A stretch of 64,000 bases of DNA, from the NCBI GenBank assembly GCA_947501355.1, contig CANMVA010000001.1, forward strand, positions 124,001 to 188,000, read 5' to 3'. The DNA is from an uncultured Paracoccaceae bacterium. Lineage in GTDB: Bacteria > Pseudomonadota > Alphaproteobacteria > Rhodobacterales > Rhodobacteraceae. The notes under the pieces were generated by a model. That model saw only the letters and a list, made by a program, of their open reading frames with translations. It did no database searches and was not told where the DNA came from. Position 1 is the first letter of the stretch. Every line of letters starts with the position of its first letter. Made by a program: the position numbers and the translations under genes. Below are positions 58,687 through 63,534 of the stretch, in pieces.

Positions 58687-59108
58687 GAAAACAGCACCCG
58701 CATGTCGCGATGGGGGATCCGCGCATCCAGATATTCGGGGCCATAGGCCTCAAAGCCCAGCGCCTCGTAGAACCCGATCGCGCGCACCTGCGCCCCCAGC
58801 TTGACGCCTTTGACCTTTTCACCTTTGCGAAAATATCCAATGGCCCAGCGGATCAAGTCCGCGCCATGCCCATCGCTGCGATGATCGGGCGACACACAGA
58901 CCCGCTCCACCTTGCCCATGCCATCTACGACGCGCAGGCGCATCGTGCCAATCGGCGTATCGCCCACACGGAGCAGCACATGGGTCGCCTCCGGGTCGAG
59001 CCCGTCTACCTCTTCGGCTTCAGTCACGCCTTGTTCGCCCACAAAGACCTGGCGGCGCAGATCAAAACACGCCTGTTTGTCAGCGTCGGTTTCAGCAACG
59101 CGGATCAT
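58683..59108 (-). CDS. GNAT family N-acetyltransferase
   Basis: 141 aa; [16 protein letters not shown]..., [27 protein letters not shown]. Confidence 0.9.
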
Positions 59109-60247
59109 GCGAAATAGTCCTGTAGAATGCGCGTGTAGATGCTTTTGAGCTGATGAATTTGCGCCACCTCAACCCGCTCATCGACCTGATGCATCGTTTT
59201 GCCCACAAGGCCGAACTCCACCACCGGGCAGTGATCCTTGACGAAGCGTGCGTCCGAGGTGCCGCCCGTTGTCGACATCTCCGGCACGCGGTTGGTCTCC
59301 ACCTGCACGGCCTTTGCGACCAGCGCCGACAAATCGCCCGGCGGCGTGATGAAGCTCTCGCCCGAAATCTTCACTTTGACTTCAATCGCCACGCCCGTCG
59401 CCTCGGTCACTTTCGCAGCCTCTGCCTCAAGCCACTGGGTCAGGGACGCGCCGGAATGGGCGTCGTTGAAGCGGATATTGATCGTCGCCTTGCACTCCGC
59501 CGGGATCACATTTGTCGCCGGGTTGCCGGTATCGACAGTAACAATAGCCAAGGTCGACGCATCAAAATGTTCCGTCCCGTCGTCCAGCGCGTGACCTGCA
59601 AGCTGATCCAGCAGCCCAACCATCGCGTGCAGGGGGTTTTTGGCGCGGTGCGGGTAGGCGGAATGCCCCTGCACGCCCACCGCTTTGAGATACGCGGTCA
59701 GCGATCCGCGCCGCCCGATCTTCATCATCTCGCCCATCTCGTTGGGGCTCGTCGGCTCCCCAACCAGACAAACCGACATCGCCTCCCCCTCAGCGCGCAT
59801 CCAATCGAGAAGCGCAGTCGTGCCGTCCAGCGCATCGCCTTCCTCATCCCCCGTAATCGCAAGGATCACCGACCCATCGGGCGGTGTGTCTTTCACAAAA
59901 TCAACAGCGGCCGCGGCAAAGGCAGCCACGCCGGATTTCATATCCGTCGCCCCGCGCCCGTAAAGGAACCCGTCCTTGATCTCGGCCCCGAACGGATCAA
60001 CCGTCCAGGCCGCTTCATCGCCCAAAGGCACCACATCCGTATGTCCGTTGAACCCAAAAGACTTCGCGTGTCCCTTCTCGCCCCAGCGCGCATAAAGGTT
60101 CGCGATCCCGGCGCGGTCCACGCGCCAGCAGGTGAAGCCCGCGCCCTCCAGCAGCTCTTGCAAAAGCACCAAAGCGCCCCCTTCGACGGGGGTCACCGAA
60201 GGGCAGCGCACAAGGGCGGCGGTCAGCTCAACTGGATCGATGGTCAC
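59105..60247 (-). CDS. dapE: Succinyl-diaminopimelate desuccinylase
   Basis: [30 protein letters not shown] (GTG start 60247); [39 protein letters not shown]. Confidence 0.95.
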
Positions 60248-60332
60248 GGGCAAAATCCTTTCAGGCCAGTCCCCTAGGCGATACCGAGTTGCCACACCGG
60301 ATGCAATTGTCTCGGAACCGGCGGAAAACTGC

Positions 60333-60347: not shown

Positions 60348-60516
60348 TGCCGCCATAGTCTTGCCGCAATAACATGACCCGAGGCAGGGCAAACAAAACC
60401 GTTGGGTCCAACGAGACCCGCATCGAGCAGTCGTCAATGAACGACATTTTATAGGGCCGCAACAGGCCCCTGCGCGAGCACGTTTGCGCTGTCTCCATAT
60501 GAGGTGGGGACAGGAC

Positions 60517-62085
60517 ATGGTTGCAGCATCGGAACTCCCGATCAACACGGGGGCCTCCGCTCTCCAGATGGCGAACGCGATCTTCGGCGCGGGCGTTCAG
60601 GTTCAAAGCGCAAGCTATACCGGGTCATCCTATTCGTCGGGCATCTATTCGAACGGCGATTCCGTCTCAGGCGGGGTGATGCCCGGCGATACGGGCGTGA
60701 TCCTGTCGACCGGCAGCGTGCGTAATTTCACCGATGGCAGCGGGCAGGCCAATAGCGGCGGCACCAAGTCGACGAACTCCCAAGGGCCGAACAATCAAAG
60801 CGATTTCAACGCAGCCGCAGGCACCAACACGTTTGATGCGGCCTATCTGGATATCGATTTCATCCCCACGGGCAGCACGATGACGATGCAGTTCGTCTTC
60901 TCGTCCGAGGAATATCCCGAATATGCCAATTCTGTTTACAACGACATGGCGATGGTCTGGGTTAACGGCTCTCCCGTGCCGATTACGGTGGGCGACGGGC
61001 AAACTGCCGTCGGCAACATCAACGGTGACGATAACGAGAACCTCTACATCTCGAACGAGAATGGCGATTTCAACACCGAGATGGATGGCTTCACCGTCAC
61101 CATGACGCTGACCATGCAGGTCAATCCCGGTGTGTTGAACTCGATCCGGATTGGCGTGGCAGACGTCAGCGACAGTGTCTACGACTCCAACCTGCTGATC
61201 GCGGGGGACAGCATCCAGACAGAGCTTGTCGCCATCGAGGACAATGTCACCGTCGGTGTCGGCGGCACCAAGACGATTGATGCACTTGCCAATGATATTG
61301 CGCCCAACAGCAGCGTGCTGACGATCACGCAGATCAATGGCGTCAATGTAGTGGCCGGTCAAAGCGTGCAGCTGGCGCAAGGCCAGACCGCGACGTTGAA
61401 TGCCAATGGCACGATCACGATCAGCACCGACACGGATGTTGAAGAAACGAACTTCACCTACACGGTCGAGGATACGACGACCGGCAATACCGATGTGGGT
61501 TTTGTCACGGTTAATACAGTGCCCTGCTTTGTGGCCGGAACCCTGATCCAGACACCTTATGGCGAGCGTCCGGTCGAAGAGCTGACCCCCGGTGACATGG
61601 TTCTGACCCAGGATGACGGCCCTCAGCCCTTGCGCTGGATCGGGTCGCGTGAGGTGGCTGCGATTGGTAAACTCGCCCCGATCCGCATCCGCGCGGGCAC
61701 CTTTGGGTCGCACCGCGAATTGATGGTCTCCCCCCAGCATCGCGTTCTGATCCGCGACAGCCTTGCCGATCTGCTCTTTGGCGATGCCGAAGTGCTGGTC
61801 GCGGCCAAGGATCTGGTCAACGATCATTCCGTGCGGCGTATCGAAGGTGGCCAGATCACCTATGTGCACCTGCTCTTTGACCGCCATCAGGTGGTCTTCT
61901 CCGAAGGGCTGCCAACAGAGAGTTTCTTCCCCGGACCGCAAACCACCAAAGCGTTCGAGGCCGAGATCATCGACGAGATTTGCACCATCTTCCCGGAACT
62001 GGACCCCATGACGGGCGAGGGCTACAGCCCGACCGCCCGCCGCGCTTTGCGCTCATTTGAAGCGCGCCTGTTATTGGCCGCTTAA
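60517..62085 (+). CDS. Choice-of-anchor L domain protein with C-terminal Hint domain
   Basis: MVAASELPINTGASALQMANAIFG...; Hint: VPCFVAGTLIQTPYGERPVEELTPGDMVLTQDDGPQPLRWIGSREV... LMVSPQHRVLI. Start chosen for SD GAGGTGGGGACAGG. Confidence 0.88.
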   Translation: MVAASELPINTGASALQMANAIFGAGVQVQSASYTGSSYSSGIYSNGDSVSGGVMPGDTGVILSTGSVRNFTDGSGQANSGGTKSTNSQGPNNQSDFNAAAGTNTFDAAYLDIDFIPTGSTMTMQFVFSSEEYPEYANSVYNDMAMVWVNGSPVPITVGDGQTAVGNINGDDNENLYISNENGDFNTEMDGFTVTMTLTMQVNPGVLNSIRIGVADVSDSVYDSNLLIAGDSIQTELVAIEDNVTVGVGGTKTIDALANDIAPNSSVLTITQINGVNVVAGQSVQLAQGQTATLNANGTITISTDTDVEETNFTYTVEDTTTGNTDVGFVTVNTVPCFVAGTLIQTPYGERPVEELTPGDMVLTQDDGPQPLRWIGSREVAAIGKLAPIRIRAGTFGSHRELMVSPQHRVLIRDSLADLLFGDAEVLVAAKDLVNDHSVRRIEGGQITYVHLLFDRHQVVFSEGLPTESFFPGPQTTKAFEAEIIDEICTIFPELDPMTGEGYSPTARRALRSFEARLLLAA

Positions 62086-62106
62086 CGTGACAGGTGGGAG
62101 CGCTTT

Positions 62107-63186
62107 ATGACCTGGATCGGCTTGCGTGATGCGAACACGCACCGCTTCTCGCTGGCTGGACTTGCCGCGCGCGGGCTGCCTCCGCCCCGCTTTGCCGAAG
62201 ACGCTTTGCTGAAACGCGGCTCACTCCAGATGGAGTTTGCCTATACACCCAGCACCCGCCGTCAGGTGCTGATTGATCATCGCTGCGAGTCCCCTTGGCC
62301 GGTGCACCTGCGCGTCACCATCACCCCCGATGCGGTGCTGCATTTCGACCTGCACTGCGGGGCGGAGCGCAGCTATATGTGCCTTGAGACCGGCCTCACG
62401 GATTGCGAGCGCGCGGTGGAACTGGTCTACTCCTGGCACGCGCCGGATCGCACGGCGCTTTTGTCGTTGCACCTGCCTTATGCCGCCAGAAGCGTGCACA
62501 GGGCGATGTACGACCCGCCGCCGTTTCCACTATCCGCGCTGCAATCACTGATCGAAGATCAACGGCCCACACGTGCGTTCACCTATCTGGCCGTCAGCAC
62601 GGATATTGAGCCGATTGGCCCTGCACCGTCCCTCGCTGGCAACGCAATCGTCGAGACCCCTTCTGGCCCGCGCTATGTGGCCCATATCAAGGCGGGCGAT
62701 CATGTGCTCTGCGACGACAACCGCCCGCGCCCGGTGCTGTGGGCCGGGCATCGCGACGTGCCGGCGCGCGGTCGGTTCCAGCCGATCCGCCTGCGCGCAC
62801 CGTATTTTGGGCTGAGCCACGACACCGTCGTCGCCCCGACCCAGCACCTCGCCTTCGACGGCCCGGATGTGGAGTATCTTTTCGGGGAAGAGCGGGTTCT
62901 GGTCAGCGCCAGCCACGCGGTCACGGGCGGCGTTCAAGCGATCCGCGATACGCGCAAATATGTCGTGCGCTATCACCAGCTTGTGCTGGAGGACCACGCG
63001 CTCATTCGCATCGGCGGCGCTGTCGGAGAGAGCCTCTTTCTGGGCGCTTTGGCCGAAAACGGCATGGCACTCAACGCGTCAATCTGGTCGGGGGCTGATC
63101 TGGACAAGGTGCCAAGCCATGGCAGTTTTGCCGCCCCGGTGCTCAAACAATACGAAGCCGTCACCCTGACCCGCGCCTTCGTCTAA
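62107..63186 (+). CDS. Hint domain-containing protein (degenerate catalytic positions)
   Basis: 359 aa; Hint-like block SLAGNAIVETPSGPRYVAHIKAGDHVLCDDNRPRPVLWAGHRDV... TVVAPTQHLAFDGPDVEYLFGEERVLV aligns with the upstream Hint domain. Confidence 0.78.
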   Translation: MTWIGLRDANTHRFSLAGLAARGLPPPRFAEDALLKRGSLQMEFAYTPSTRRQVLIDHRCESPWPVHLRVTITPDAVLHFDLHCGAERSYMCLETGLTDCERAVELVYSWHAPDRTALLSLHLPYAARSVHRAMYDPPPFPLSALQSLIEDQRPTRAFTYLAVSTDIEPIGPAPSLAGNAIVETPSGPRYVAHIKAGDHVLCDDNRPRPVLWAGHRDVPARGRFQPIRLRAPYFGLSHDTVVAPTQHLAFDGPDVEYLFGEERVLVSASHAVTGGVQAIRDTRKYVVRYHQLVLEDHALIRIGGAVGESLFLGALAENGMALNASIWSGADLDKVPSHGSFAAPVLKQYEAVTLTRAFV

Positions 63187-63195
63187 GCCCGACGT

Positions 63196-63534
63196 CTAGT
63201 CTTTGTCGTAAAACGGCGTCATCTGCGCCACGATGACCGAGTTCTCGTCCAGCGCCCGCTGCATCAGGCCGCGTTCATCGTCGTTGATGTCATGGCCTTC
63301 GGCCAGCCGCTCTTCCAGCGTGCCATAGCCCGACACATCGAGTGGCGCGAGGTCCGCCTGTTTGAGAATGGCGACCGTTTCCCGCACGGCCTCCGCCTCA
63401 TCGACGCCGCTCGCAAAACACATCAGCGCCGCGCCCGTGCTGCCATCCGGCAGCCCGTCGCCGTCCTTGCGGCCCACCTCCACCAGCAGGGTAAACACCT
63501 GCTGGCGGGATTTCTTTTTGGGTTTGTCAGCCAC
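63196..63534 (-). CDS. Conserved hypothetical protein downstream of dapD
   Basis: 112 aa ORF abutting the dapD stop; MADKPKKKSRQQVFTLLVEVGRKDGDGLPDGSTGAALMCFASGVDE. Confidence 0.72.
   Translation of the reverse strand: MADKPKKKSRQQVFTLLVEVGRKDGDGLPDGSTGAALMCFASGVDEAEAVRETVAILKQADLAPLDVSGYGTLEERLAEGHDINDDERGLMQRALDENSVIVAQMTPFYDKD

Follow-up and report, generated by a model that had tools for sequence, protein, structure and literature searches.

The window considered here, i.e. the entire analyzed stretch of DNA (64,000 nt), contains two tandem open reading frames on the same strand, gene 1 (p1) and gene 2 (p2), and both frames that the preliminary description had placed here are found at their positions (Table 1). 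The start of gene 1 was taken to be the ATG at 60517, not the upstream TTG at 60484, and the spacing between the two genes is 21 nt.

Table 1. Features of the locus in window coordinates (for individual residues, the codon position).
Feature	Position	Strand	Description or basis
dapE	59105..60295	-	assigned by sequence; conserved upstream neighbour of the pair
gene 1 (p1)	60517..62085	+	522 aa; choice-of-anchor L, Ig-like, Hint_2, C-terminal tail
choice-of-anchor L domain	60565..61212	+	NF038133, 160.6 bits
Big_9 bacterial Ig domain	61228..61515	+	PF17963, E 1.6e-7
canonical Hint_2	61525..61938	+	PF13403, 183.5 bits
gene 1 Cys1	61525		Cys337
gene 1 block-B His	61738		His408
gene 1 block-F Asp	61879		Asp455
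gene 1 C-terminal tail	61939..62082	+	IFPELDP...LRSFEARLL; sequence inspection
gene 2 (p2)	62107..63186	+	359 aa; jelly-roll domain, predicted pseudo-Hint, tail
gene 2 N-terminal all-beta domain	62107..62616	+	LamG/neurexin/CBM40-like jelly roll; AlphaFold pLDDT about 92
predicted pseudo-Hint	62629..63045	+	PF13403, 92.9 bits
gene 2 residue at Cys1	62629		Ser175
gene 2 residue at block-B His	62842		Gln246
gene 2 residue at block-F Asp	62989		Glu295
gene 2 C-terminal tail	63046..63183	+	closes with a helix (VLKQYEAVTL) that corresponds to the FEARLL end in gene 1
112-aa ORF	63196..63534	-	no assigned function; downstream of gene 2, followed by a dapD-like gene

The profile search for gene 2 in named genomes yielded 286 relatives, and 80 loci were retained, from Roseovarius, Sulfitobacter, Thalassovita, Lutimaribacter, Cognatishimia and other genera. 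The gene order in these 80 loci is recurrent, with dapE (minus), gene 1 (plus), gene 2 (plus), the small ORF (minus) and dapD (minus): a frame resembling dapE, which is a gene of lysine synthesis, lies upstream of the pair in 77 loci, gene 1 immediately precedes gene 2 in 64, and the 112-aa ORF is found downstream in 62. The gap between the two genes is between -4 and +6 nt in 47 of the 58 loci where it was measured. Matches to the gene 2 protein are common in 101 genomes of the same family, where full-length matches usually adjoin a gene-1-like frame of about 530-570 aa, and a class-wide sample of 190 genomes gave same-family matches only, with none outside Rhodobacteraceae/Roseobacteraceae. 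The pair is a tightly spaced two-gene operon in the dapE-dapD locus, conserved across these families. In some relatives (loci L055, L072, L087, L109, L122 and L128) a second gene-1-like protein is encoded between the small ORF and dapD, and genes of this kind thus recur in the dapE-dapD interval.

The composition proposed earlier for gene 1, a choice-of-anchor L domain and a Hint domain with Cys1, is borne out, since both domains score above the cut-offs (27 bits for NF038133, choice_anch_L; 28.4 bits, the curated value, for Hint_2, PF13403, passed by gene 2 as well). The Big_9 domain is an addition to that list. The Hint domain of gene 1 ends with TESF, Glu and Ser of this end being invariant in 31 aligned rows, and lacks the His-Asn end needed for splicing, so that the expected chemistry is release or transfer of the N-terminal part rather than splicing. 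The AlphaFold model of gene 1 (pLDDT 71) is weaker than that of gene 2, with low confidence in the anchor-L part, and the fold search gave useful scores for the Hint part only, which matches inteins. No N-terminal signal peptide is evident by eye in either gene. Gene 1 probably encodes a surface or secreted protein, and it is plausible that its intact Hint domain makes it capable of self-processing.

Gene 2 combines a different N-terminal part with a related C-terminal one. Its AlphaFold model has a mean pLDDT of 91.7, and the C-terminal half is predicted to retain the Hint fold, the Foldseek matches being mini-inteins and a bacterial intein-like domain; thus the relatedness of the second protein, on which the preliminary description had depended, is upheld by structure prediction. 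The Hint_2 profile match spans residues 176-313, and all 62 aligned gene 2 rows match PF13403. The N-terminal domain has no match to any Pfam family, and no counterpart was found in other Hint proteins of the genome. The Foldseek matches of this half are jelly rolls of laminin-G, neurexin, thrombospondin and CBM40 proteins (E 4e-5 to 1e-3), with TM-scores normalized by target of about 0.4-0.47 for single-domain matches, which is moderate. According to the model, it has a predicted jelly-roll (ConA-like/LamG) fold, with moderate scores, and, as judged by fold similarity only, is probably lectin-like.

The catalytic positions of the two Hint domains can be compared directly, as the ungapped alignment of gene 1 and gene 2 extends from Cys1 to block B. 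Two 27-residue strings quoted in support of such an alignment are exact (from residue 402 in gene 1 and from residue 240 in gene 2), and their gap-free alignment has a score of 33, attained in 2 of 100,000 shuffles. The reported replacements of Cys by Ser and of His by Gln are likewise correct: Ser175 stands at the position of Cys337 and Gln246 at that of His408, in each case with the offset of 162, which is also shared by secondary-structure elements of the two AlphaFold models. A third replacement, block-F Asp455 to Glu295, had been missed. His247 of gene 2, which follows Gln246, was considered as a shifted catalytic His and rejected, since the offset is constant in both sequence and model and this residue is aligned with Arg409; across the family, 54 of 62 gene 2 sequences have Arg at this position.

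These differences are features of the families rather than of the window copies. Among gene 1 relatives, Cys1 is present in 68 of 68 readable sequences, block-B His in 69 of 69, and block-F Asp in 69 of 70; in the 31 fully aligned gene 1 rows all three are invariant. The exception, coming from another set, is a gene 1 relative (L042) with Tyr at Cys1. In gene 2, the most frequent residue at position 1 is Gly (28 of 77 copies), followed by Thr (21), Ser (19), Ala (7) and Cys (2), and the block-B position is occupied by Gln in 74 of 80 copies (His in four, Ala and Lys in one each). None of the 80 copies has both Cys1 and block-B His: Gln stands at block B in the two with Cys1, and position 1 is Gly in the four with His. 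The block-F Asp position is Pro in most copies. On the gene 2 tree, position 1 has changed at least 17 times, with at least five crossings between nucleophile and non-nucleophile residues, which fits the lack of constraint at this position; in contrast, Gln246 is nearly fixed. As judged from these residues, the Hint domain of gene 1 is predicted to be competent in the class 1 sense (Cys1 together with block-B His), and that of gene 2 is predicted not to be.

The residue preceding the Hint domain (window positions 61522-61527 and 62626-62631) is Pro in all 31 gene 1 rows and in 56 of 62 gene 2 rows, which is unusual at a cleavage site. In inteins, Pro at -1 slows thioester formation. Hence, the invariant Pro makes cleavage of gene 1 itself uncertain.

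The Hint domain of gene 2 is, as far as sequences and model indicate, a conserved pseudo-Hint kept by purifying selection and not a decaying copy. A simple counting method, applied to only two pairs, gives dN/dS values for the Hint domains of gene 1 and gene 2, respectively, of 0.018 and 0.028 in comparison with Cognatishimia sp. MH4019, and of 0.055 and 0.12 in comparison with a more distant relative. Moreover, gene 2 frames are intact across dozens of genera and their structural residues are invariant. The Hint domains of gene 2 fall into a single clade (support 100), which adjoins gene 1 and some other paralogues, none of which the tree singles out as the exact sister. That gene 2 is a functionless decaying duplicate is barely conceivable: the loss of catalytic residues would be expected from decay, but the low dN/dS, the intact frames, the invariant structural residues and the high-confidence fold argue against it, and the pseudogene explanation was rejected on selection and conservation.

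The genome encodes 18 Hint_2 domains, at least six of which have lost Cys1, so that Hint chemistry seems, by sequence, to have been lost repeatedly in it. Five further domains without Cys1 are located at C1:1169500, C1:1586431, C1:1999960, C1:1239591 and C2:67788 (loci L019, L021, L014:14565-15527, L022 and L020 of genome G000), two of these being nearly bare Hint domains in frames of 165 and 170 aa. Another Hint_2 domain (L017:1349-2386; G000 C1:2232819) has Ser at Cys1, a Cys two residues before it, and intact SPDHR, and is a candidate for a Ser-type or shifted active site.

In some other Hint proteins of the genome (in L009 and L016), the Hint domain is preceded by RTX-type glycine-aspartate repeats, and RTX-repeat Hint proteins of the same genome end with a tail related to that of gene 1 (such as LFPEL...EAKLL); no RTX repeats were found in gene 1 or gene 2. 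Substrates of type I secretion have a C-terminal signal, often together with RTX repeats. Since the tail is common to RTX-Hint proteins, the Hint-plus-tail module would occupy the usual place of type I export signals. The genome has two PrtD-type type I exporters above the curated cut-off, and by analogy both genes may use the shared tail for export as type I substrates. In fast-responding marine Rhodobacteraceae, PF13403 domains are over-represented together with RTX repeats (PMC12487129).

We consider it fairly probable that gene 1 is a self-processing surface or secreted protein and gene 2 an exported, lectin-like protein that retains its Hint domain as a non-cleaving fold. The Hint_2 domain of gene 1 would form a thioester at Cys337, which would then release or hand over the N-terminal part. 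The Hint-plus-tail module of gene 2 would be derived, probably, from gene 1 or a close relative, and its clade would have lost thioester chemistry in or near the common ancestor, because it has no conserved nucleophile, no block-B His and usually no block-F Asp. Since then, purifying selection would hold this domain as a folded, non-cleaving module, or fixed scaffold, and its failure to cleave would leave the binding domain covalently joined to the Hint domain and the tail. The predictions are thus that gene 1 cleaves itself, that gene 2 does not, and that glycans or the surface are bound.

The preliminary description regarded the two proteins as a possible active/pseudo-enzyme partner pair. 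The first part of this proposal holds, as family-wide residue conservation, fold and selection point strongly to an active Hint beside a pseudo-Hint. Autocleavage and surface attachment, the roles suggested for the pair, are plausible. For the partnership there is the gene arrangement alone, and operon structure does not establish a specific physical one. The pseudo-Hint of gene 2 could bind the Hint domain or thioester of gene 1 and regulate cleavage, or accept the surface domain of gene 1, which we regard as unlikely. The conserved tight operon with near-overlapping genes and the common ancestry of the Hint domains are consistent with such binding, as is the weak correlation of gene 1 and gene 2 distance matrices after removal of dapE and RNase R (r 0.21, p 0.02), but the latter is below the one between gene 1 and dapE with RNase R removed (0.41), and co-evolution was set aside as evidence of partnership, being weak and no better than controls. 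Moreover, at least 12 loci have gene 2 but no gene 1 in the interval from dapE to the small ORF, and a search of ten such genomes showed that seven lack any full-length or anchor-L-containing relative of gene 1; gene 1 without gene 2 also occurs (e.g. in G082, G044 and G093). The operon arrangement argues for joint expression, and a pair of co-expressed exoproteins, of which only one is processing, is more likely than an obligate enzyme/pseudoenzyme complex, which is doubtful. In an extended and highly improbable version, the thioester of gene 1 would be resolved onto a surface acceptor with the dead Hint of gene 2 as docking partner or acceptor, placing anchor-L beside the lectin-like domain; if true, such two-protein Hint-based surface display would parallel hedgehog lipid transfer in bacteria, with a pseudo-Hint as the partner.

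Two other explanations concern the chemistry itself. Gene 2 might be active by another route, either by an N-O shift at Ser/Thr or with an internal Cys as in class 3. Ser at position 1 is used by some inteins and is found in the window copy (Ser175), Ser or Thr occupies this position in 40 of 77 copies, and block-F His is present in 53 of 62. However, Gly or Ala is found there in 35 of 77 copies, whose architecture is the same, 76 of 80 copies have lost block-B His, and no Cys column exceeds 27% in gene 2, making this activity quite improbable. A Ser/Thr nucleophile is disfavoured by the Gly or Ala in nearly half of the copies and by frequent switching, and class 3-like activity was rejected for the lack of a conserved Cys. 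Conversely, neither gene may use Hint chemistry now, the Hint domain and tail of gene 1 serving mainly as an export or anchoring signal. The invariant Pro at -1, the repeated loss of Cys1 in the genome and the fact that Hint plus tail terminates many of its unrelated exoprotein-like genes are in line with this explanation, but it is improbable, since the invariance of the three catalytic residues in gene 1 is hard to explain without chemistry.

Hint domains are known as self-processing machines, and in gene 2 such a machine has probably become a static structural element. Inteins without activity would in themselves be unsurprising; here, a large marine bacterial family has kept a Hint clade that is devoid of its chemistry, whose fold is maintained by selection and which has an intact relative in the operon. 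No functional studies on choice-of-anchor L, PF13403 or pseudo-Hint were found in the open-licence literature, where a family-wide, selected, catalytically dead Hint lineage in an operon with an intact one appears to be undescribed. The pair offers a natural test of roles of bacterial Hint domains beyond cleavage, such as export, anchoring and scaffolding.

Compared with known systems, gene 1 has the residues of the Hint_2 family (PF13403), and gene 2 deviates from it at Cys1, block-B His and block-F Asp. Both Hint domains share the fold of bacterial intein-like (BIL) domains, such as that of Clostridium thermocellum (PDB 2lwy), which occur in variable regions of bacterial proteins (PMC5874633), but gene 1 has no C-terminal Asn, and hence no His-Asn end as in splicing inteins or in C-terminal cleavage by BIL domains, and gene 2 has no catalytic residues. 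Class 3 inteins (MchDnaB1, MsmDnaB1) are among the best fold matches of gene 2 and also operate without Cys1 chemistry; they require Cys, His and Thr (PMC7664689), whereas gene 2 has neither a conserved Cys nor block-B His and does not belong to this class. The N-terminal domain of gene 2 resembles LamG, neurexin and CBM40 jelly rolls in fold and not in sequence family. Gene 1 shares its N-terminal domain with choice-of-anchor L proteins (NF038133), and, going by the family name, its Hint domain may stand where other anchors would, at the putative anchor position. The hedgehog Hog domain is, like that of gene 1, a C-terminal-side Hint without a splicing end, and thus gene 1 is expected to undergo cleavage or transfer at the N-terminal side, though the passenger domains of the two differ.
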